Part shown: piece after piece, positions 4,979-35,280 of the stretch
How the letters are laid out: each line of letters starts with the position of its first letter
Numbering within the stretch: the first letter of the stretch is position 1
Source of the DNA: Fusobacteriaceae bacterium
GTDB taxonomy: Bacteria > Fusobacteriota > Fusobacteriia > Fusobacteriales > Fusobacteriaceae
NCBI GenBank assembly: GCA_031272945.1
Contig: JAISST010000091.1
Location: forward strand, 1 to 35,280
Length of the DNA stretch: 35,280 nt
Direction: 5' to 3'
Program-made: the position numbers and the translations under genes
Notes under the pieces: generated by a model
The model's database searches: none
Told to the model about the DNA's origin: nothing
What the model saw: the letters and a program-made list of their open reading frames with translations, nothing else

Positions 4979-6643
4979 TTAAAAGAGACCGGAGATGACG
5001 CCGTTTTCGTCGATGTCGATCTGTTCCGCAGCCGGTTTTTTCGGCAGCCCCGGCATATCAATGATGTCCCCGGCCATGGCCACGATGAAGCCCGCCCCCG
5101 AGGCGATACGAAGCTCGTTGATGGTCACTGTGAAATTCCGTGGTCTGCCGAGGAGGGCGGCGTTATCCGAAAGGGACTTCTGGGTCTTGGACACGCAGAC
5201 CGGATAGTTGCCGTAGCCCAATTCGTCGATGGTTTTGAGCATTCTTTTGGCGGCCGGGGAAAATTCCACGCCGTCGGCGCCATAGATCTCCGTGGCGATC
5301 CGGACAATCTTGTCCTTGACCGGCAGATCGAGGGGATAAAGCGGCGCGTAATGATCTGTCCCCGCTTCGATGGCCTTAAGGACTTCCTTCGCCAGAGCAA
5401 GGCCCCCTTCGCCGCCCTTTTCCCAGACTTCGGTCAAAGCTACGGGGACGCCCAATTTCGCACAGAAATCTTCTATAAATTTTGTTTCTTTTTCCGTATC
5501 CGTCACAAAGCGGTTAATGGCGACTACGACCGGCAGGCCGTATTTTTTCATGTTTTCCACATGTTTTTCGAGGTTTTCGCTGCCTTTGGTCAGGGCCTCC
5601 AGGTTTTCCACATGGAGTTCCTTTGCCCCCCCGTGATGCTTCAGGGCCCGCACCGTGGCCACGAGGACGATGCAGTTGGGCGTAAAGCCCGCTTTCCGGC
5701 ACTTGATATCGAGGAATTTTTCCGCGCCCAGATCCGCGGCAAATCCCGCTTCCGTCACCGCGTAGTCCGAGGTTTTCAGCGCCAGCTTCGTGGCCAGAAT
5801 GGAGTTGCAGCCGTGGGCGATGTTGGCAAAGGGCCCGCCGTGAATAAAGGCGGGGGTGTTTTCCAGCGTCTGGACGAGATTGGGCTTGACGGCTTCTTTC
5901 ATCAGGGCCGCCGCCGCCCCTTCGATGTGGAGATCGCCTACTTTGAGGGCCTTGCCGTCCCGGGAGTAACCGAAGATGATGTTTTTGATCATTTCTTTGA
6001 GGTTGGCCAGGGAATCAGCCAGGCAGAGGACCGCCATGATCTCGGAGGCCACGGTGATCTGGAAGCTGGACTCCCGGGGAACGCCGTTGGCTTTTCCGCC
6101 GAGACCGATCACGACGTCCCGGAGCGCCCGGTCGTTCATGTCGACGACCCGCTTCCAGGTGATTTTCGTCACGTCGATATCGAGGGCGTTGCCCGAGGCG
6201 ATGTGGTTGTCGATACAGGCCGCGATCAGGTTGTGGGTGACGCCGATGGCGTGCAAGTCTCCGGTAAAATGGAGGTTGATATCCTCCATGGGGACGACCT
6301 GGGCGTAGCCGCCGCCGGTGGCGCCGCCTTTTATACCGAATACGGGGCCCAGGGAGGGTTCGCGCAGGGCCGCCGCGGAGCGTTTGCCCAATTTGTTCAG
6401 GGCCTGGGAGAGACCCACGGTCACCGTGGATTTCCCTTCTCCGGCGGGCGTCGGCGTGATGGCAGTCACAAGGATCAGTTTCCCGTCTTTTTTGTCTTTT
6501 AATTTTCTCAATACGTCGAGACTGACTTTGGCTTTGTATTTGCCGTACTGTTCGATGTCATCGGGAGAGATCCCGATCTTTTTGGCGATTTCGGCCACTT
6601 CCGTCAGTTTGCATTCCTGGGCGATTTGGATATCCGTTTTCAT
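4979..6643 (-). CDS. fhs: Formate--tetrahydrofolate ligase
   Basis: Makes 10-formyl-THF from formate, THF and ATP, the one-carbon donor for the two formyl-transfer steps of purine synthesis. The ATG at 6643 with an upstream GGAGGAAAC site gives 554 residues, the normal family length; a 42-codon in-frame extension exists but runs through the leader hairpin and has no ribosome binding site. The P-loop-like TPAGEGKST is at 65-73 and the second family signature, VPMEDINLHFTGD, starts at 117. Being first in an operon with purL-purE-purC fits one-carbon supply for purines. Control is probably by the leader upstream (see the hairpin at 6668-6715). Confidence 0.97.
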   Translation of the reverse strand: MKTDIQIAQECKLTEVAEIAKKIGISPDDIEQYGKYKAKVSLDVLRKLKDKKDGKLILVTAITPTPAGEGKSTVTVGLSQALNKLGKRSAAALREPSLGPVFGIKGGATGGGYAQVVPMEDINLHFTGDLHAIGVTHNLIAACIDNHIASGNALDIDVTKITWKRVVDMNDRALRDVVIGLGGKANGVPRESSFQITVASEIMAVLCLADSLANLKEMIKNIIFGYSRDGKALKVGDLHIEGAAAALMKEAVKPNLVQTLENTPAFIHGGPFANIAHGCNSILATKLALKTSDYAVTEAGFAADLGAEKFLDIKCRKAGFTPNCIVLVATVRALKHHGGAKELHVENLEALTKGSENLEKHVENMKKYGLPVVVAINRFVTDTEKETKFIEDFCAKLGVPVALTEVWEKGGEGGLALAKEVLKAIEAGTDHYAPLYPLDLPVKDKIVRIATEIYGADGVEFSPAAKRMLKTIDELGYGNYPVCVSKTQKSLSDNAALLGRPRNFTVTINELRIASGAGFIVAMAGDIIDMPGLPKKPAAEQIDIDENGVISGLF

Positions 6644-11777: not shown

Positions 11778-11906
11778 ATTCTTAGCAAATTACAGCTTTG
11801 GTTGATACGCATAAAGTTATTTATAAAAAAACGACCGAACAGGCTGTGCGGGCATAACTTATGTCCATGGCCTTTTTGATTGGGAAGGAGAGGATTTATC
11901 GGCGTG

Positions 11907-14900
11907 ATGAGAAAAGCGAAGTTTAAAAGAAAGGGAAACGGCCGGAAAAGACGAGGGCGAATGTTGTCTTTGATCCTGATCGCCTGGCTTTTGGCGAAGA
12001 TTCCGGCAATCCGCGCCGCGGAAAAAATCAATGAATGGATCGCGGCGCCCGAGCATACGGGGGTTGGCAATAATGTGTCAGCCCCGGAGAATCAGGCCAT
12101 ATCCGCTGCCATCATGGATTATCTGACGAAGCGGGGGGATCTGGACGCCGTCAAGGCGGCGATCCGGAACGCGCGGGAGAGCAATCAACTCGCCACGGCG
12201 GAAATCGCGTTGACCTCGGATTATGAATTGAACGCAAAGCAAGATAACAGAGAATCTTTGGGATATCATGTGATATTGGGAAGGGATTTGGATGGGATCG
12301 AAAAAACAGAATACTACACGGTCAGTATCCATATCAGCGGAGACGGAAATCTCATCATTGATAATGAGAAAAAGGATTCGATCCAAGGTTTTACAATCGC
12401 TTCCGGGACGCCATATCCTTATAATCAAGCCAGTGAATATGGTTCTTTAAGAAATGGGGGCGTGTTTTATAATTGGCCGACGGGGTTTGATGGAATCCCC
12501 ATATTGGTATTGACCGGCGACGGCGATTCCAAATATATATTCACCCGTCAGCACGCAAGACTCGGCGGCGCTATATTCAACAGCTACGGGTACGTTTATA
12601 TTGAGCACGCGATATTTATAGACAATGAAAACACCGGCGACTCCGAAGGCGGCGCCATATTCAACGCCCGGGGAAAAATGATCCTCCATGATGTGGATTT
12701 TATTCACAATCGCGGCAATTATCTCGGCGGGGCGCTGTGTAATTACTATACGACCGGGGGTATTTATTCGGGTTACCTGCGGATTAAAAGAGTGACTTTC
12801 AGAGAAAACTTCACAACCGATGAGCATGTCGGACACGGAGGGGCCGCCGCCATCGGCGGAGAAGTCAATATTATAGAAGACGCGAGCTTTCTTGCGAACC
12901 GCGCGAGAGGGAAAGGCGGCGCCATCTATATGGCAAACCCCGATCCCTTTGATCCTACGGGAATTACCCTGGAATTGACAGCGGACGAAGGAGACATCCT
13001 ATTCGCGGGGAATTACGCGGAAAACCACGATCCGGACCATCCCGACGTTTCCGGCGGCGGCGCCATCTACGCGACGCCGGGTTCTTCCCTTATATTGAAC
13101 GGCAACGGCGATTTCTATTTCGGCGACAAGGACAGTACGGATCCGGACGGCGGAAACGCCAAAGATAACGTGGACTCCGTCTATATGGACCAAAAGGCCG
13201 TCTTTACAAAAACCGGAACAGGATTTTTACAAATGGTCGGATCTCACAAGATCGACGCCTCCAACGGCGGAAAATTTGAGATACAAGAGGGCGCGCTGCG
13301 GATCGCCAACAACGGAATGGAAGGGACCGAAGTTCTCGCCGTGACAAATGACGTCGCACTCGGTTCCGCAAGCGCTACGGCTGCGGAACTGGCGGGATAT
13401 GGAAAAATCAGCGCCGCGTCTTATACGCTGAAAAACGTAAAGATCAATCCCGATCACGCGATCCTGACGCCCGGCGGCAACCATGAAGAGGAACTTAAAG
13501 CCGCCCCCGTCGGGACCCTGGTCTTGAACGCCCGCGGACGCATTGACTTTCATTCGGGCGTGTCTTATCACGTGGACATCGATCCCGCGACAGGGACGAA
13601 CGATCTGATCAAAATCACCGGCGCTCCGACGGTTTCGGGGAATTTGGAGATCACCGGCGCTTACGGGAGCGCTCCCGCTGCGGGAGACCGGTTTACGGTA
13701 TTGGAATCGGACGGAGATTTAAACGTGTCCGCCGCCCTGACCCCCTCGGACTTCCTGCGGGCCGCCCGCCTGTCCGGGAGTCTTGATACCGTGACCGATA
13801 CGCAAAAAATAACCATTGTGATCGAAAAAGACAACGGCAGCCTTGATCTGATCTGGAAAGGCGTCGTTAGCGACGTCTGGAAGCATGATGAAGAACCCTT
13901 GAAGAACTGGAAACTGGAAAATCCCGACGATGCGTCTTATTACCGGAACAACGACAATGTGACCTTTACCGCGACCGGCGCGGGCGTCGTCCAAGTGGAC
14001 CCGGCAGGGGTCGCGCCCTCCAAAATGACTGTTTCGGATGGAGATTATACCTTTACCGGCGGGGCCGTAGTCGTAGCCGGAGATCTCGATATCGCCGGAG
14101 GCGTCACGATCCTGCGAAACGAAGTCAGCGCCGCGAAATTAAAGGTCGTCAACAACGCCGGGCTCATTCTGGACGGCGCAAATCTTACGGCTGCGAACAT
14201 CGAGGTCCGGACGTCGGATCTTGTTCTGGACGGGTCAAAAGTCAGCCTGAAGGACGCCGGGGGAAGTCCCGGCGCCCTTGACGTCGACGGAAAGAGCGTT
14301 CTTTCGCTCTACAACTACCCGGAAATCCGAGGCAATCTGAAGATCTCGGGACAGATGAACTATTACGCGCCCGAAGATTTTAAAATCTCCGGCGGAAAGA
14401 GCCTCGTCACCGTAACGGGCCACACGGATATCACGGACAGCGTCATAGACATCCGGATTCCCGGATCCGGAGATCCGCTTCATCCCTCCGATAAAATCGT
14501 GCTGCTCCATTCCGCTACGCTTACCGGCGAACCCGGAAATATCATTGTGGAAAACGACACCATCGTGGTGGAATTCGGCTCCACATTGGCCTACAGCTTC
14601 TTTGAACTCTATGTGGAAGAGAACAAACTCATGGCGCGTCTGGCCGCCGATCTTTCCGAGGACGAGGCCTTGACCGCGGCGCTTCGGAAAGACAAAGCCC
14701 TTTCGGAGGCCCGGATCGGAGGCTTAACGGCCTTAAACGCCGGAGGCGACCTGATCGGGGAATCGGGGATGCGGACCGTGGCAGGCAATTTCCGGACCGC
14801 GGACCATCCCGACGACTGTCAGGCCTTTTCGGTGAGCCGGGGAGGATTCTTGCGCTACCACACGGGCTCCCGCGTGGACCTCAAAAGCTTTTCCGTGGCG

Positions 14901-15632
14901 GCGGGCCTCACAAAGGGGAAGACGGAGCGAACAAACGATTTTGTATGGGGCGCCTTCTTCGAATACGGGAACGGCTCCTATGACGCCTTCAACGCCTTCG
15001 CCGGAGCGGGCTATGTCCACGGCAAAGGCAATATCCGCTACCTGGGCGGAGGACTTTTGGGAAGGCTGGATTACAACGGAGCAAAAGGAAGACCCTATCT
15101 GGAAGGGAGCGTCCGGGCGGGAAGAATAAAAAATCACTATGACGGATCCAGAATCGCGGGCGTGGCCAAATATGACGCCGCTTCCGGCTACGGGGGCTTT
15201 CATACGGGAGTCGGTACGGTTCTGCCTTTGGATGACAGCTGGGAACTGGATCTATCGGCTAAGTACTTCTATACCCGGACAGGCGGGGAAACCGTAAGTC
15301 TTTCTTCGGGAGAAGAAGTAGCCTTCGGGGCGGCAACGTCAAGCCGTCTGCGCCTGGGGACCCGGCTTTCCCGGCAGGGAAGTCTCCGCTTTCAGCCTTA
15401 TGCCGCAGCCTACTATGAATACGAATTTGACGGAAGGATCAAGGCGGATATCGTGGCGGCAGGGCTGCCGATTGAAAGCCCCGAGCTGAAAGGCGCCGCC
15501 TGGATCGGGGAATTGGGCTTGATGTTTCAGCCTTTCGGGGCGGTTCCTTTTACGGTGGATTCCGCGGTGCAGGGATATGCGGGAAAGCGGGAAGGCGTCA
15601 CGGGGACGCTGCATTTCAAGTACAAGTTTTAA
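11907..15632 (+). CDS. Type Va autotransporter with Pmp-like GGAI/FxxN beta-helix passenger (paralog 1)
   Basis: Outer-membrane or surface protein of 1241 residues. Start: ATG 11907 (or GTG 11904) behind GGAAGGAGAGG; the open frame begins at a TTG inside that site. The signal peptide has a very basic n-region (about 1-18), then LSLILIAWLLAKIPAIRA. Residues about 40-105 are a helical domain shared with the second paralog. About 219-390 carry alternating GGAI and FxxN motifs (GGAIFN, FIDN, GGAIFN, FIHN, GGAL, FREN, GGAIY, FAGN), as in chlamydial polymorphic membrane proteins. One passenger repeat module lies near 645-735. The last 270 residues (from QAFSVSRGGFLRY) are a 12-strand-type barrel ending in Phe (GTLHFKYKF). 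A likely adhesin or surface-structure protein; its ligand is unknown. Confidence 0.93.
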   Translation: MRKAKFKRKGNGRKRRGRMLSLILIAWLLAKIPAIRAAEKINEWIAAPEHTGVGNNVSAPENQAISAAIMDYLTKRGDLDAVKAAIRNARESNQLATAEIALTSDYELNAKQDNRESLGYHVILGRDLDGIEKTEYYTVSIHISGDGNLIIDNEKKDSIQGFTIASGTPYPYNQASEYGSLRNGGVFYNWPTGFDGIPILVLTGDGDSKYIFTRQHARLGGAIFNSYGYVYIEHAIFIDNENTGDSEGGAIFNARGKMILHDVDFIHNRGNYLGGALCNYYTTGGIYSGYLRIKRVTFRENFTTDEHVGHGGAAAIGGEVNIIEDASFLANRARGKGGAIYMANPDPFDPTGITLELTADEGDILFAGNYAENHDPDHPDVSGGGAIYATPGSSLILNGNGDFYFGDKDSTDPDGGNAKDNVDSVYMDQKAVFTKTGTGFLQMVGSHKIDASNGGKFEIQEGALRIANNGMEGTEVLAVTNDVALGSASATAAELAGYGKISAASYTLKNVKINPDHAILTPGGNHEEELKAAPVGTLVLNARGRIDFHSGVSYHVDIDPATGTNDLIKITGAPTVSGNLEITGAYGSAPAAGDRFTVLESDGDLNVSAALTPSDFLRAARLSGSLDTVTDTQKITIVIEKDNGSLDLIWKGVVSDVWKHDEEPLKNWKLENPDDASYYRNNDNVTFTATGAGVVQVDPAGVAPSKMTVSDGDYTFTGGAVVVAGDLDIAGGVTILRNEVSAAKLKVVNNAGLILDGANLTAANIEVRTSDLVLDGSKVSLKDAGGSPGALDVDGKSVLSLYNYPEIRGNLKISGQMNYYAPEDFKISGGKSLVTVTGHTDITDSVIDIRIPGSGDPLHPSDKIVLLHSATLTGEPGNIIVENDTIVVEFGSTLAYSFFELYVEENKLMARLAADLSEDEALTAALRKDKALSEARIGGLTALNAGGDLIGESGMRTVAGNFRTADHPDDCQAFSVSRGGFLRYHTGSRVDLKSFSVAAGLTKGKTERTNDFVWGAFFEYGNGSYDAFNAFAGAGYVHGKGNIRYLGGGLLGRLDYNGAKGRPYLEGSVRAGRIKNHYDGSRIAGVAKYDAASGYGGFHTGVGTVLPLDDSWELDLSAKYFYTRTGGETVSLSSGEEVAFGAATSSRLRLGTRLSRQGSLRFQPYAAAYYEYEFDGRIKADIVAAGLPIESPELKGAAWIGELGLMFQPFGAVPFTVDSAVQGYAGKREGVTGTLHFKYKF

Positions 15633-16115: not shown

Positions 16116-16257
16116 TGATAATGAAACACTACATTTTTGGTTGTGATATGTGATTTATTTTTTTATTCTTTAATTATATTATACCGACCGGTTGGGCTTC
16201 TTCACATTTTTATGTGGTGAATAGGCTTTGTTTTGGTCGAAGGAGAATGATGTAGGG

Positions 16258-19200
16258 ATGAAGGAGAAAAGGAAGAGGATTATAGGGGGTGGGGGTAAGG
16301 CTAAGAGGCGGTTGTTGGTTGCGGCTTTTATTGTAGCCGGATTGATGTCGCAGAAGCATATTTATGCGGAAAGACTTGATCAATGGATAGAAGATCCCGA
16401 CGGAAATTCCGCGACATCCGACCAAGGAATTGGTTTGGGCGTTAATAATGTAGAAAATAATGCAATAAAACGTGCAATAGATGACTATTTAAATAACACA
16501 GGAAATTTGGATGCTATTAAAGCCGCAATAGAAATTGCAAGAGGTGCAAACGCACTTCCAACTGCAAAACTAACGTTGACAGGAGATCGCATCTTTACTG
16601 CTCAGTTACTAGGCGGAGAAGAACACATCGTGGTAGGGAAAGGATATGATTATTCTGGATCATATACTTATACCCCGACTAAAGATATGGTCAGTATAGA
16701 TATAAATGGTAATGGACAATTTATAATAAATAGTAGTAATCCTGGCGGCGTTTCTACTTCAAGCCAATTATTTCATTCTTCAGTGAGTGGTGGAGCCTTT
16801 TATCTAGGAGGTGTTAGCGCAGGAGCAAATAATGAACCACTTTTGATTTTAACAGGAAATGAAAACGCAAAATTCTATATTACAGATCAGCAAGGAATAT
16901 ATGGAGCTGCAATTTTGAATTTGCTTGGATATACATATTTGGAACATACAATATTTGATACAAACCATAATGGTGGCTACGGCGAAGGAGGAGCAATATA
17001 CAATTATGGGTATACGGTAATTGATAATTCGGATTTCATTAATAACTATGCCAGCCAAAATGGCGGTGCAATTGTTAGTTACGGTCCAATATATATTAGC
17101 AATTCAAATTTTATTAAAAATTCAACGACTACTGTTGGTCATGGAGAAGGTGGTGCACTTCTTTTAGAAGGGAACACCAATACTGTGGAAAACTCTTCTT
17201 TTATTGAAAATAGTTCGAGTGGTAACGGTGGCGCGATTTATGTTGGAGATCCTTGGTATTCTTCGCCTGGATCATTAAAGCTGATTGCTGACGACGGAAA
17301 TATAGTTTTTGCTGGAAATTATAGATATACTAGCGCTCCAACAGTCTCCGATGGCGGAGCAATTTATGCTTATGCAGGTTCTACCATAAACCTTACCGGT
17401 GAAGGCAATTTCTATGTCGGTGATAAAAACAGCACAAGCTTAAATGCCGGAACCAATGTAGATAATATTGATTCAATCTACATGGGAGCAGGCGCAACAT
17501 TCACCTACAACGGCCACCCCGAAAACGGCTTCTTACAGCTGGTCGGTTCCCACGAAATCGATACTTCAGGCGGTGGAGATTTCAAGATTGACTATGCCAA
17601 TCTTCGAATCGTAAATGACGCAGCAAGTGAAAGCTTAAATACTCATGCCGTATTCAACGTGCATGATTCCATCCTCTCCGGACAAGGAAAAATCGTTACG
17701 GATTCTTTCAGTTTTGACAACTCCAAATTCTCCCCCGACAGTGCTGTTTTATGGACCGATTTAAGCGCGGGACATCTTACAAGGACGCAATTTGACGCTT
17801 TAACAGCCGCCGATGCGGAGCGGATCGGAGAATTGCAGATTGATGCTGCCGCGAGTGGAATTACGATTATTGCCGACGCGCATTATTATGTGGATCTTGA
17901 TCCCGCCAACAGCAGAAATGATAAGATAACGATTACCGGCGCTGTTAACGGTACGCCTACTATGAATATTGACGCTTTCTTTGGTTCTGCGCCCACAAGC
18001 ATGACGCCCATAACAATTTTGAGTGCAAGCGGCGGCCATAATATTTCTGTGGGAACGTTTACGGACAACACGCCTGCGGTATTGCAAGCGGCGCATATGC
18101 AGGCTAAAGTCACTACCGACGCAAATAATATCTATATTGCTTTTGATCCTGTGACTGCGGATCTCATCTGGAAGGGACAGCCGAACATGACTTGGGAAAA
18201 TAATTCATCCAGAGTAAATTGGTTTGTGGATGACGGCACGAATCAAGCGGATTCTTTTTTCCTTGACGGTGACAGCGTCACCTTCAAAAGCGGTGCTGCA
18301 GGCTCCACAGAAGGCATCGTTACAGTAGACGCCGCAGGCGTCAATCCCGCAAGAATTTACATGGATAACGGCGGAACTTATACATTTACCGGCGGCGACA
18401 TCAACGTCACCGGAGACTTTCAAATCCAAAACGCTTACGTTACAATAAATAATAAAGTTACCGCAGCCCATGTGAACGCTGACAGCCAGACTCTTACCCT
18501 TGATAATGCGGACATTACTGCCGAAGTAAATTATAACGGCTACAATAAACTCTTGGTGGTCAATCCTTCTAAAATTACCGGAAATCTCAATATAAACAGC
18601 GGCACTCTTTCCATAGTAGTACCGGATTACGCTTCAGCTACAGCTTCTGCCTCCACCCCAATGCTTGATGTAATTTCAGGAAATATTATACTCGGAAGTC
18701 CGTATTATAAACTAATCGAACTGGATACCACTGCCCTGACAGCCCCGGGATTTTCAGTCGGCGATAAAATCGTCGTGGCAAGGGCTGCTTCTTCCATTAC
18801 AAAACCCGATGATATCTCTTACGATGCGCTGCCTGCCGGAGGAGATTTCCGCGAAAAACAGATGAAATTGGCGGCCGAAGTCGCCGGGAACGAACTGTAT
18901 CTTGCCGTGAAAGCCTTTGGACCCATCACATGGAAAAATGTTACCGGTAAAGGACAAACAGGTAATATGACCTGGGAAGCGGTGGGAGATCCCATTTGGG
19001 AGGATGAAGACGGAAAAGAAACCGAATTTTACACCAACGACGACGTCATCTTTGCCGGCGCGGGACAGGGCGACATTACCGTAAAAGACCCGGTTTACCC
19101 GAATTCCGTCCAAATCAAAAACGGCGCCTACAGCTTCAGCGGCGCTTCCGTCAACGTCATGAACGACACCGCCGTAAATAACGCGACAGTGTCCTTCACA

Positions 19201-20712
19201 AGCGATCTTACAACGAATCAGTTGGACATCCAAAACAAGTCCGACGTCACCCTCAAAAACGAAACCACCGCGGCCCAAATCACCGTTCGGGCCTCCACCC
19301 TCACGCTGGACGGCGCGAAAATCACCCTGAACGGCATCGGCGCAAGCCAGGGATACCTCGACGTCGGCGGACAGAGCAAACTCAATATCTATAATTATCC
19401 CGACATCACCGGCGACCTGAAAATCTCCGGCGAAATGACCTACTACGTACCGGACGGCTTCAAAGTAGCGGACGGAATCGCCCTCATGACAGTCTCCCGG
19501 GACTCCAACATCACCGACAGCACCATTGACGTCCGGATCCCCGGAACAGGAGAGCCGCTTCATCCCTCCGATGAAATCATACTTTTAGGTTCCAATACCA
19601 TTACGGGAACCCCCAAAAACATTATTGTCGCCAACGACACCATCAAAGTCGAATTCGGCACCACTTTGGCCTACAGTCTCTTTGAACTCTCCGTCGAAAA
19701 CAACAAACTCATCGCGCGCCTGGCTGCGGATCTTTCGAAAGACTTCGCCCTGGCGGCCGCCCTCGAGAAGGACAAAGTTCTTTCGGAGGCTTACCTCGGC
19801 GGGATCGCCGCATTGAACGCGGGCGGAGACTTGATCGGCGAATCGGGAATCCGCTCCCTGGTGGACGGGTTCAAAACCCTGGCCAACCGCTTTGACTACC
19901 ACGGCTTTGCCGTGACCCAGGGCGGCTACACCCGCTACGACACGGGCTCCCACGTGGATCTCAAGAGTTTCTCGGTGGCGGCCGGGCTCTCAAAGGGCGT
20001 CGCCCTCAAAAAGAGCGAATTCGTCTGGGGCGCTTTCTTCGAATACGGCAACGGTTCTTATGATACGTTCAATTCCTTCGCGGGCGCGGGCTACGTCCAC
20101 GGCAAAGGCAACATCCGCTACTTTGGCGGCGGACTCCTGGGTCGTCTGGACTTTTCCGGCGACAAAGCGTCCTCCTATTTCGAAGGCAGTATCCGGGCCG
20201 GCCGGGTGCGCAACCACTATGACGGATCGGCCGCATCGGACGTCGCTTCCTATGACGCCTCCGCCACTTACGCGGGCTTCCACGTCGGCGCGGGAACCGT
20301 ACTTTCCCTTTCGGAAAAGGCGAAACTGGATCTTTCGGCCAAGTATTTCCTGACCCGTACCGGAAGCGAGACCGTAACGCTTTCCTCGGGAGAGGAAGTG
20401 GCCTTTGATGCCGCCAAATCGAGCCGCCTGCGGTTGGGCGCGCGGCTTTCCCCGAACAAAAGCGCCCGCTTCCGGCCTTACGCAGCCGCTTACTACGAAT
20501 ATGAATTTGACGGAGCGGCCAAGGCGGAAATCGTGGCCGCCGGGCTTCCCATTGCGAGTCCCTCCCTCAAAGGGGCCACAGGGATCGGCGAAGTAGGCGT
20601 CGTGTTCCAGCCTTCCGCCTTCATTCCCTTCACGGTGGATGTGGCCCTGCAGGGCTACACGGGGAAACGCAAAGGCGTTACGGGGACGCTGCATTTCCAG
20701 TACAGATTTTGA
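16258..20712 (+). CDS. Type Va autotransporter with Pmp-like GGAI/FxxN beta-helix passenger (paralog 2)
   Basis: A surface protein of 1484 residues, paralogous to the upstream autotransporter along its whole length. Start: ATG 16258, with AAGGAG at 16240; earlier in-frame codons include only a TTG. Signal peptide: basic start, then LLVAAFIVAGLMSQKHIYA. A helical N-terminal domain (about 36-105) is followed by GGAI/FxxN repeats (about 216-375: GGAIYN, FINN, GGAIV, FIKN, GGALL, FIEN, GGAIY, FAGN). There are two passenger modules (about 635-725 and 890-970) against one in paralog 1, which explains most of the extra length. The barrel spans the last 270 residues and ends GTLHFQYRF. The 5' part of the gene is strongly AT-rich, whereas the 3' part matches the GC-rich surroundings. 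Likely adhesin; ligand unknown. Confidence 0.93.
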   Translation: MKEKRKRIIGGGGKAKRRLLVAAFIVAGLMSQKHIYAERLDQWIEDPDGNSATSDQGIGLGVNNVENNAIKRAIDDYLNNTGNLDAIKAAIEIARGANALPTAKLTLTGDRIFTAQLLGGEEHIVVGKGYDYSGSYTYTPTKDMVSIDINGNGQFIINSSNPGGVSTSSQLFHSSVSGGAFYLGGVSAGANNEPLLILTGNENAKFYITDQQGIYGAAILNLLGYTYLEHTIFDTNHNGGYGEGGAIYNYGYTVIDNSDFINNYASQNGGAIVSYGPIYISNSNFIKNSTTTVGHGEGGALLLEGNTNTVENSSFIENSSSGNGGAIYVGDPWYSSPGSLKLIADDGNIVFAGNYRYTSAPTVSDGGAIYAYAGSTINLTGEGNFYVGDKNSTSLNAGTNVDNIDSIYMGAGATFTYNGHPENGFLQLVGSHEIDTSGGGDFKIDYANLRIVNDAASESLNTHAVFNVHDSILSGQGKIVTDSFSFDNSKFSPDSAVLWTDLSAGHLTRTQFDALTAADAERIGELQIDAAASGITIIADAHYYVDLDPANSRNDKITITGAVNGTPTMNIDAFFGSAPTSMTPITILSASGGHNISVGTFTDNTPAVLQAAHMQAKVTTDANNIYIAFDPVTADLIWKGQPNMTWENNSSRVNWFVDDGTNQADSFFLDGDSVTFKSGAAGSTEGIVTVDAAGVNPARIYMDNGGTYTFTGGDINVTGDFQIQNAYVTINNKVTAAHVNADSQTLTLDNADITAEVNYNGYNKLLVVNPSKITGNLNINSGTLSIVVPDYASATASASTPMLDVISGNIILGSPYYKLIELDTTALTAPGFSVGDKIVVARAASSITKPDDISYDALPAGGDFREKQMKLAAEVAGNELYLAVKAFGPITWKNVTGKGQTGNMTWEAVGDPIWEDEDGKETEFYTNDDVIFAGAGQGDITVKDPVYPNSVQIKNGAYSFSGASVNVMNDTAVNNATVSFTSDLTTNQLDIQNKSDVTLKNETTAAQITVRASTLTLDGAKITLNGIGASQGYLDVGGQSKLNIYNYPDITGDLKISGEMTYYVPDGFKVADGIALMTVSRDSNITDSTIDVRIPGTGEPLHPSDEIILLGSNTITGTPKNIIVANDTIKVEFGTTLAYSLFELSVENNKLIARLAADLSKDFALAAALEKDKVLSEAYLGGIAALNAGGDLIGESGIRSLVDGFKTLANRFDYHGFAVTQGGYTRYDTGSHVDLKSFSVAAGLSKGVALKKSEFVWGAFFEYGNGSYDTFNSFAGAGYVHGKGNIRYFGGGLLGRLDFSGDKASSYFEGSIRAGRVRNHYDGSAASDVASYDASATYAGFHVGAGTVLSLSEKAKLDLSAKYFLTRTGSETVTLSSGEEVAFDAAKSSRLRLGARLSPNKSARFRPYAAAYYEYEFDGAAKAEIVAAGLPIASPSLKGATGIGEVGVVFQPSAFIPFTVDVALQGYTGKRKGVTGTLHFQYRF

Positions 20713-33029: not shown

Positions 33030-33200
33030 CGCAACCTCCTGCGCCTTCGGCGCCGAGCGGGCGAATGTTCTTGTTGGGTTGGGCGAATATTCAGTCCCGG
33101 CTGTGGCGCGCTACGCTTGCTGACGCCGGGACATCGCGGCCTTCTAACGTCTGCTTCGCATACGTAAGAAGTCGCGAATTCGCCCCTACACTTGCGGGTA
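33030..33200. repeat. Dense block of nested palindromes (REP/MITE-like)
   Basis: Contains GGCGCA/TGCGCC near its left end, GTCCCGGC (33094-33101) / GCCGGGAC (33125-33132), and CTTCTaACGT (33141-33150) / ACGTaAGAAG (33162-33171), the last two enclosed by GGGCGAAT (33059-33066, repeated at 33081-33088) and ATTCGCCC (33178-33185). The right flank CGCCCCTACA is shared with the repeat at 23326. No coding frame is convincing. It may be a repeat cluster or a structured RNA. Confidence 0.55.
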
Positions 33201-33223
33201 AGGGTTTACGGCGATTTATAAAC

Positions 33224-33261
33224 AAAACAGCCTTTCGGAGATATTCCGGGAGGCTGTTTTT
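33224..33261. terminator. Bidirectional terminator at the edge of the accessory region
   Basis: AAAACAGCCT (33224-33233) pairs with AGGCTGTTTT (33251-33260), with an inner CGG/CCG pairing; T-rich on both sides. It can end the DUF711 transcript and, from the other side, transcripts leaving the invertible segment leftward. Confidence 0.88.
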
Positions 33262-33270
33262 CATATGAAT

Positions 33271-34296
33271 TTATGCCATTTTGGGTATGAGAATCTGATA
33301 CGACAAAAGTGCTACTTTACAAATAATAAAGTAACGCCTGCCAATATAATAACAAAATTCTCCGCAAAAATCAACCTTATATTTCAAGAGGTCTGCAAAT
33401 ATTTCGACACATTTCCGCTTCTGTTCAGTTTGCGGATGAACGTACAGTTTTTGTGTTGTCAGTACATCTGCATGTCCTAAAATTTTACTCAGCGCCACCG
33501 GATCTGCTCCGATTCCGATCAATGTTGTAGCAAAGGTATGCCGCAAAGCATGTACATTCACTCTTCTGATCCCCGCTGTTTTCAAGAATGAATAAAAGTA
33601 ACGCCTGTATGTATTCGGTTCCATTGGAGATGAAGTTCCGCTCACGATATAGAAGTCGGGGTTTTGTATTGAAAACGCTTGGAGCAATTTCAACAATATA
33701 CCGGAGATTGGAATTTCCCGGATGGAAGTTTTTGATTTCGGGCTGGACAAGACGAGTTTTGTTCCTTTATGGAGAGAAATCCGGTTCACGGTCTTGGATA
33801 TATAGAGCAATCTTTCTGAAAAGTCGAGATCTTTATACTGTAAAGCGCACAGTTCGCCGATCCGAATCCCTGTCAGCAAACAAATGGCTATACCGAGCGA
33901 TCGGGCAGTCAGATTTGCCTTTACAGACTGCAACAGCTTTTTCTGTTCCTCCAATGTCAGCACATTCAGAGATCTCTTTCTTTCCGGAATCCGGAATGTA
34001 GACCGCAATGATTTCATCCGCATGATATCCTCACGGATTGCGGCGTGTAAGCAGATTTTCAAAATTGTCACATAGGTTTTTATGCTTCCACCGGCTTTCC
34101 CTTCTTCCGTTAATTTGGAAATGAACTGTTGAATCAGTTCTCCGGATATTTTATCCAGCGGATATTGCCCGAAAAACGGAAGCAGATGCTTGTTTACGAC
34201 TCTTCGATACAAGGCTTTCGTGGATTCTTTGATACAGGATTCCTTCTTTCTGAGCCAATCCGTCGCCCAGGTTTTGAATAATACTTGTTTGCGCAT
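33271..34296 (-). CDS. Tyrosine site-specific recombinase (phage integrase family)
   Basis: 341 residues from ATG 34296; the open frame starts 14 codons earlier, without a ribosome binding site. An N-terminal SAM-like core-binding domain (about 5-90, ALYRRVVNKHLLPFFGQYPL) is followed by the catalytic domain (about 110-300). The active-site set is complete: Arg145 (TGIRIGEL), His249 and Arg252 (HALRHTF), His275 (ILGHADV), Tyr285 (KLYVHPQT). After the tyrosine there are 56 more residues, longer than usual; the last 20 are encoded by the left inverted repeat and the flank beyond it. The gene is AT-rich compared with its left neighbours. Two perfect inverted repeats surround it, so it probably inverts its own segment. 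Excision or integration of a larger element is the alternative. Confidence 0.93.
   Translation of the reverse strand: MRKQVLFKTWATDWLRKKESCIKESTKALYRRVVNKHLLPFFGQYPLDKISGELIQQFISKLTEEGKAGGSIKTYVTILKICLHAAIREDIMRMKSLRSTFRIPERKRSLNVLTLEEQKKLLQSVKANLTARSLGIAICLLTGIRIGELCALQYKDLDFSERLLYISKTVNRISLHKGTKLVLSSPKSKTSIREIPISGILLKLLQAFSIQNPDFYIVSGTSSPMEPNTYRRYFYSFLKTAGIRRVNVHALRHTFATTLIGIGADPVALSKILGHADVLTTQKLYVHPQTEQKRKCVEIFADLLKYKVDFCGEFCYYIGRRYFIICKVALLSYQILIPKMA
33314..33335 (+). repeat. Left inverted repeat / putative recombination site
   Basis: 22 bp beginning ACTTTA-CAAATAA-TAAAGT and ending AAC. The first 19 bases are themselves two 6-bp inverted arms around a 7-bp centre, as in tyrosine recombinase core sites (two protomer-binding arms and a 6-8-bp crossover region). 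An identical copy lies inverted at 34344. It overlaps the recombinase coding sequence (codons for RYFIICKV). Confidence 0.9.
33346..33374 (-). promoter_or_regulatory. Outward-facing promoter inside the invertible segment
   Basis: On the minus strand TTGATT (33374-33369), 17-bp spacer, TATTAT (33351-33346). Predicted transcription starts just before the left inverted repeat and runs leftward out of the segment. It lies within the 3' end of the recombinase gene and does not drive that gene. Confidence 0.6.
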
Positions 34297-34343
34297 GAAA
34301 TCACCATTCCATAAGATTTTATACAGATATCTTATCATGGAAT

Positions 34344-34365
34344 GTTACTTTATTATTTGTAAAGT
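34344..34365 (-). repeat. Right inverted repeat / putative recombination site
   Basis: Exact reverse complement of 33314-33335, with the same arms and 7-bp centre (TTATTTG on this strand). It lies 48 bp upstream of the recombinase start codon and 74 bp before the gene at 34440. Between it and the recombinase is an imperfect inverted repeat (ATTCCATAAGAT / ATCTTATCATGGAAT, 34305-34342) that spans a possible TATAAA -10 for the recombinase and could be an operator. Confidence 0.9.
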
Positions 34366-34439
34366 GACGGAAACTGAAATCAACGATTACGTACAATAAG
34401 TTCATTAGTGCGTAGGGGAACATATGTAGGAAGCCAATA

Positions 34440-34658
34440 ATGACTGAAGAAAACATGAATAATAGTGTTGTTTCAGAAAATGAACAAGAAGAAAGCAGCG
34501 CAGTAGAAGCAAGCATTTCCGGTGAACGTGATGGCTTGGTTAGTGCAAGTGAAGCCAAAGAAGCGGTAGACGAAGGATTGCCTAAAAAAATATGTAAAAA
34601 CTGCTCTAACCAACTATTGCTTCCCCGATTAAACCTTACAGAGTACAAAACGTGTTAA
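34440..34658 (+). CDS. Small acidic protein with a CxxC motif, function unknown
   Basis: 72 residues, not recognised. The first 45 are acidic and rich in Glu, Ser, Ala and Val (likely disordered). The end has KKICKNCSNQLLLP and a final Cys (YKTC), a half zinc-ribbon-like arrangement that might bind metal alone or as a dimer. ATG 34440 is preceded by AGGAAG. It is the first gene to the right of the invertible segment, with no clear promoter in the 74 bp between, and is followed 15 bp later by a membrane-protein gene, so they are probably one operon. Confidence 0.6.
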   Translation: MTEENMNNSVVSENEQEESSAVEASISGERDGLVSASEAKEAVDEGLPKKICKNCSNQLLLPRLNLTEYKTC

Positions 34659-34673
34659 TATAAGGAGGCACAA

Positions 34674-35280
34674 ATGAAGAAAATAAGGAATATAATTGTT
34701 ATTATTCTTATTGCAATATCATGTTGGGCTGCAACAAAAGGTATGAAAAATTTTCTTGGAGTATTCTATTTCACCGGTGGAAGTTTACTCATTATATTAC
34801 TGATTAGTATCTTCGTAAAGATGATTAATAAGCAGGATGAAGTTATTAACCAAGTACCAGGATTAACGGAGAAAGAATTGCCAATGTGTATGTTGGCTTA
34901 TAAAAAATTGAATACCGAAACATTCAATTCTTTGTATGTTGACAAAGAAACTGAAACATACAAAAATTTTCATTTGCTATCAGAACAGGATAAAAAGTAT
35001 CACATTCTATCTCTGGCGGGAGAGGATCTTGAAAAAGTAAAAAAGAAAGAAGGCAAAACAAATACTATTATAAAAATCTGTTTACCAATATTTACGATAT
35101 TAGTCCTTGGATTGGGCTTTATTGCTCTGCGACAAAATCTTAGAAAAGTGTTAAATCTTAAAGATGGCGTCAGTATTATGCAATTATTCAGCAGCAAGTC
35201 AAGATTGATTGCAACCACAAAAGAAATAAAAGTAGGAAACGTTCTGCAAATAGGGAATAGCAAGGTGCAAACGATAGAAG
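34674..35280 (+). CDS. Predicted membrane protein, function unknown, 3' end cut by the window
   Basis: From ATG 34674, behind AAGGAGG, 202 codons stay open to the window edge. Predicted transmembrane helices lie at about 5-20 (RNIIVIILIAISCWAA), 28-49 (LGVFYFTGGSLLIILLISIFV) and 131-152 (IIKICLPIFTILVLGLGFIAL), separated by a charged region of about 80 residues rich in Lys, Glu, Tyr and Thr. No family recognised. The sequence is strongly AT-rich (one 60-base line at 34681 has 16 G/C by hand count), unlike the core genes. It is likely co-transcribed with the CxxC protein and hence a candidate target of the promoter switch. Confidence 0.75.
   Translation, partial: MKKIRNIIVIILIAISCWAATKGMKNFLGVFYFTGGSLLIILLISIFVKMINKQDEVINQVPGLTEKELPMCMLAYKKLNTETFNSLYVDKETETYKNFHLLSEQDKKYHILSLAGEDLEKVKKKEGKTNTIIKICLPIFTILVLGLGFIALRQNLRKVLNLKDGVSIMQLFSSKSRLIATTKEIKVGNVLQIGNSKVQTIE

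Follow-up and report, generated by a model that had tools for sequence, protein, structure and literature searches.

The window, by which we mean the whole stretch of DNA analysed, is a complete contig of 35280 bp, the composition of which is ~60% GC up to ~33100 and AT-rich from ~33100–33200 to the end. Towards its right-hand end, a tyrosine recombinase gene (core 33382–34296, minus strand; ATG at 34296, preceded by GGTG) is bracketed by two recombination sites in inverted (head-to-head) orientation. Beyond the right site, on the plus strand, there are two open reading frames: ORF1 (34440–34658; 72 aa, with one CxxC), which begins 72 bp past the site behind the RBS-like sequence AGGAAG, and ORF2 (34674–35280; 202+ aa, membrane-protein-like), which is truncated by the contig end. 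These are, respectively, the first and second candidate targets of the element described below. Neither belongs to a recognised family: ORF1 has no match in Pfam, NCBIfam or PADLOC, and no relatives of ORF2 were found among 98 genomes of the phylum, plasmids and IMG/VR. A search for a continuation of the contig past 35280 found none. In both congeners, other genes occupy the orthologous position after the DUF711 gene, and this whole block of the window is, therefore, accessory. To the left of the element, and outside it, lies a dispersed host repeat of ~110 bp (33081–33190), with several more near-full-length copies in the same genome (85–92% identity) and weaker copies in G001.

The recombinase belongs to the Pfam family Phage_integrase (7.7e-27), and is thus not a serine (resolvase-family) enzyme; when it is aligned with five relatives, its catalytic residues show no variation. 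By profile, the nearest solved structure is 6EMY (Int protein), which we take to be Tn1549 Int. Against PRK09870, the NCBIfam model for tyrosine-type DNA invertases of the FimB/FimE kind, it scores 31 bits (cut-off 221), and a scan of the genome's contigs with its sequence (P0001) gave only two distant matches. The preliminary description held the gene to be complete and to lie between the repeats: the enzyme is indeed intact, but its frame lacks the stop that the five relatives all have and continues through the left site to 33271, tens of codons beyond the point at which those relatives end. This in-frame C-terminal extension (33271–33381, minus strand) passes through both the outward promoter and the left site, such that inversion would alter the C-terminus of the recombinase: the predicted tail is VALLSYQILIPKMA at present and would be VTETEINDYVQ in the inverted form (junction made in silico). 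The extended frame may, however, simply reflect a lost stop. A consensus scan also gave a possible promoter for the recombinase gene itself (TTTACA-18-CATGAT; 34334–34363, minus strand), the -35 of which falls within the right site; it is possible that site-bound recombinase represses its own gene.

Sites, promoter and terminator of the window element

The most conspicuous feature of the locus is a perfect 22-bp inverted repeat (33314–33335 and 34344–34365), the two copies of which are separated by 1008 bp. It is the longest perfect pair in the window among pairs 200–2000 bp apart, and it exceeds chance: shuffling the window 60 times gave pairs of at most 16 bp, and shuffling the AT-rich tail 1000 times gave pairs of at most 18 bp, so that its length was not reached in any shuffle. 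Each copy contains ACTTTA-N7-TAAAGT, which occurs only twice in the genome, at these two sites. The repeats first remarked upon in the preliminary description are, therefore, real, but their extent needs correction, as the functional sites appear to be units of 25 bp, each comprising a 9-bp arm, a 7-bp spacer and a second 9-bp arm. Written in the outward direction, starting within the element, the left site (33311–33335) reads GTTACTTTA-TTATTTG-TAAAGTAGC on the minus strand, and the right site (34344–34368) reads GTTACTTTA-TTATTTG-TAAAGTGAC on the plus strand. The spacer and inner arms are identical in the two sites, and the outermost arm bases are imperfect, as expected of sites that exchange strands within the spacer.

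Just inside the left site, a predicted promoter, TTGATT-17-TATTAT (33374–33346, minus strand), with a TG before the -10, faces out of the element. Its presence at this position agrees with the preliminary description; taken alone, it scores 9/12 (p=0.22), which is not above chance, and the real evidence for it is instead the register that it keeps with the promoters of related elements (see below). In its current path there is a strong bidirectional hairpin terminator at 33221–33264 (previously placed at 33224–33261), with RNA folding energies of -24.2 kcal/mol on one strand and -20.0 kcal/mol on the other, which would keep the OFF state silent. The same hairpin is conserved beside a remnant copy of the element on another contig of this genome. 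On the opposite side, a scan of the window found no promoter-like site reading into 34440, in line with the earlier remark that this gene has no recognisable promoter of its own.

Elements of the same build in a congener

The congener G002 carries five elements built like that of the window. Two of these, on C22 and C70, contain a full recombinase bracketed by its own perfect repeats (29 and 32 bp, respectively, and differing from one another). The two enzymes are 44–45% identical to the window recombinase and are under purifying selection (dN 0.11, dS 0.76). The remaining three elements (C62, C65 and C70b) are shortened: only a deleted remnant of the recombinase persists in C62, and no remnant is visible in C65, which means that flipping of these two, if any, must occur in trans.

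Four of the five elements have a common site, GTCTCTATT-N7-AATAGAGAC. A search of 98 genomes from the phylum gave eight occurrences of this pattern, every one of them in G002, and these form exactly four inverted pairs (a reversed control pattern gave 0). The 7-bp spacers are equal within each of the four pairs and unlike between pairs; as read from the sequences, such a combination of constant arms and pair-matched spacers is the signature of inversion by a tyrosine recombinase. The 9-7-9 build of the window sites is shared by these four pairs, and that of C70b is 10-7-10.

The outward promoter occupies the same place in all six elements of the genus, with a 17-bp spacing and a -10 situated 10–14 bp from the site. 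In G002, the -35 is TTGACA throughout, followed after 17 bp by TAGTAT, TAATAT, TATAAT, TAACAT and TAATAT. Moreover, each of the five G002 elements has, on its promoter side, a site that can form a hairpin of 9–11 bp, and a T-run comes after it in the outer flank: 7–8 of the 9 flanking bases are T on the promoter side, as against 2–4 of 9 on the other. The hairpin-forming site and its T-run mean that the present transcript would meet a terminator at once. Past the site on the non-promoter side, a gene begins within about 340 bp. Candidate targets in G002 comprise a 97-aa gene, behind which C22 has a polymorphic outer membrane repeat protein, together with genes for a WYL regulator and for a DUF1232 protein. 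With a terminator on the promoter side in the G002 copies and in the window alike, all six genus elements are in what we take to be the OFF arrangement, suggesting a strong OFF bias, if flipping occurs. The window itself also encodes two long proteins with polymorphic outer membrane protein repeats (ORFs 11880–15632 and 16228–20712); repeats of this type also occur in the protein past the C22 element.

A decayed second copy of the left end of the window element is found on C29, a further contig of the same genome (L012, 650–950). It is 71% identical to the window and comprises the C-terminus of a recombinase interrupted by stops, a promoter that aligns with the family register, a site and the terminator.

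Inversion model and alternative explanations

Considering the anatomy of the element together with the family comparison (sites, recombinase, promoter register, asymmetry of the terminators, shared build, spacer pairing and the purifying selection in G002), the most likely reading of the window element is a promoter switch of the Hin type that employs a tyrosine recombinase. We put at roughly 0.77 the probability that 33311–34368 is a self-contained invertible promoter switch, currently OFF for ORF1 and ORF2; we infer from the sequence features that the segment inverts, that its promoter is active and that these two genes are the regulated ones. In the proposed mechanism, the enclosed recombinase would bind both head-to-head sites at their 9-bp arms, and strand exchange within the identical 7-bp spacers would invert the 1-kb segment, recombinase gene included. 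The promoter, which lies at the 3' end of that gene, would always fire outward across the nearer site: in the current orientation it would point left, and its transcript would stop at the hairpin 33221–33264 (OFF), whereas after inversion it would stand beside the right site and drive transcription of ORF1 and ORF2 from 34440 and 34674 onwards (ON). Promoter inversion by an enclosed recombinase, as first proposed for this locus, thus draws its support from the G002 site pairs, their spacers, the promoter register and the one-sided terminators; similarly, the terminator on the promoter side and the gene on the other favour the earlier assignment of the present orientation as OFF and of the right-hand genes as the target.

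A number of points speak against a switch in the window: the p-value of the promoter, the missing stop of the recombinase, the lack of known relatives of ORF1 and ORF2, and a contig that ends within ORF2. In addition, the element is seen in a single orientation. The preliminary description had named the opposite orientation in related genomes as a check on the model, and no genome or contig with it was found for the window element; in IMG/VR, the window and G002 sites had no match, and the site of L096, a related element from that database, matched only L096 itself. Together with the six OFF elements of the genus, this implies that flipping may be rare or lost. Indeed, the element could be a fixed relic, a former switch that no longer inverts, in which the repeats are recent enough to have stayed perfect and the promoter has decayed. 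The uniform orientation of the six genus elements, the lost stop and the clearly decayed copy on C29 would all fit such a history, which we nevertheless regard as unlikely, given that the spacer and inner arms are identical in both sites, that the catalytic residues are intact and that the G002 relatives are under purifying selection.

The other two explanations concern mobility, and both are judged weaker than a promoter switch. Terminal inverted repeats around a single recombinase could denote a transposon, with MITE-like deletion derivatives across G002; several copies do lie at unrelated loci, some with internal deletions, and the window copy is missing from the corresponding place in both congeners. 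Transposition would not, however, yield a private spacer that is matched only within each copy, as inversion would; the copies also retain an outward promoter and a one-sided terminator beside a gene, and conservation extends beyond the repeats to the T-run and, on C29, to the terminator, all of which makes this explanation distinctly improbable. Least credible is an ordinary genomic-island integrase, in which case the repeats would act as core sites or as a terminator, and the ORFs on the right would be cargo. The sequence is AT-rich from about 33200 to the contig end, and relatives of the recombinase are common in phages and plasmids; against this, head-to-head sites invert rather than excise, the window contains no tRNA gene (the right end of any larger element would lie beyond the contig), and relatives in the phylum are found at loci for capsule and defence, several of them accompanied by inverted-repeat pairs. 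An integrative element with attL and attR would be expected to end in directly repeated core sites, frequently at a tRNA gene.

A broader proposal can be made, which we advance tentatively and at a little under even odds: that self-contained promoter switches run by tyrosine recombinases form a mobile family in this phylum. The constant arms would determine the enzyme and the private 7-bp spacer would serve as the address of each copy, preventing cross-recombination; C62 and C65, which lack an intact recombinase, would be flipped in trans; and the palindromic site would double as a terminator hairpin on the OFF side only, by virtue of the T-run outside the element. With its shared arms, private spacers and recombinase-less copies, the G002 set would represent a natural experiment on how one recombinase can run several switches without scrambling the genome.

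Comparison with known switches and more distant relatives

The Hin invertible segment of Salmonella is about 1 kb in length. It resembles the window element in layout (hixL-hin-promoter-hixR, fljBA), with an enclosed recombinase and a promoter at one end: hin lies inside the segment that it inverts, and the outward promoter drives the neighbouring operon (PMC2784873, PMC9368917). The enzymes differ, as Hin is a serine recombinase with a Fis-bound enhancer (PMC3798978), and the window element has 9-7-9 sites and a tyrosine recombinase, which is unrelated to Hin; if flipping occurs, the Hin design has been rebuilt with an unrelated class of enzyme. The cwpV and flagellar switches of Clostridioides difficile likewise involve a XerC/D-like tyrosine recombinase, RecV, and phase variation of downstream genes, and the cwpV inverted repeat has been proposed to act as an intrinsic terminator in the OFF transcript only (PMC2784873); however, recV is unlinked to the switch and the cwpV promoter is stationary and external, whereas in the window both lie inside the segment. 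The FimB and FimE tyrosine recombinases of Escherichia coli, which invert the fimS promoter, are also encoded outside their switch. In Streptococcus pneumoniae, the tyrosine recombinase gene psrA is listed within the hsdS inverton on which PsrA acts (PMC12324116), an enclosed arrangement like that of the window, except that hsdS coding sequences are shuffled rather than a promoter. For the invertons surveyed in gut Bacteroidales and Clostridia, in which inverted repeats flank a promoter segment, the tyrosine recombinase is reported as nearby, intersecting or within 5 kb (PMC11892184), whereas here the recombinase is the main content of the segment. A recombinase within its own switch is, therefore, less unusual than was initially suggested, with Hin (PMC2784873) and PsrA (PMC12324116) as precedents. 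For promoter inversion in this phylum, we found no description in the literature searched, outside which lie many subscription papers.

Two further elements share parts of the design. In L067, a more distant relative, a 29-bp repeat surrounds the recombinase, and TTGACA-16-TATAAT, just inside the right arm, faces hsdR (type I restriction) 85 bp on, with no T-run after the arm; judged by its sequence, this is an ON arrangement, at a locus other than that of the window, and no orthologues of the element were found in its genus. L096, from IMG/VR, has the OFF design, comprising a 27-bp site and T-run, with the promoter on the 5' side of the recombinase. The loci L077–L079 are orthologous and have one and the same orientation in all; hence, no natural ON/OFF pair was found.

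Inverted-repeat pairs, 150–400 bp apart, adjoin the recombinase relatives in L077, L078, L079 and L070, which come from another family of the phylum. By species, these elements precede different phage-defence genes (BrxA, HsdM or an HKD+Snf2 helicase), and in L077–L079 the predicted invertible segment is conserved and the defence gene behind it is exchanged. In several species (L068, L069 and L071–L075), the recombinase adjoins a gene for a capsule-type sugar transferase; its orientation is the same in every case, and a peptidase-like gene often lies on its opposite side. In L074, an 18-bp repeat surrounds the recombinase. The proximity of recombinase relatives to capsule and phage-defence genes makes phase-variable defence directly testable. 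Additionally, a second integrase ORF (5171–6247) in L098 (4999–6320; IMG/VR) lies between the two copies of a perfect inverted repeat of 29 bp, and is possibly another self-contained switch.
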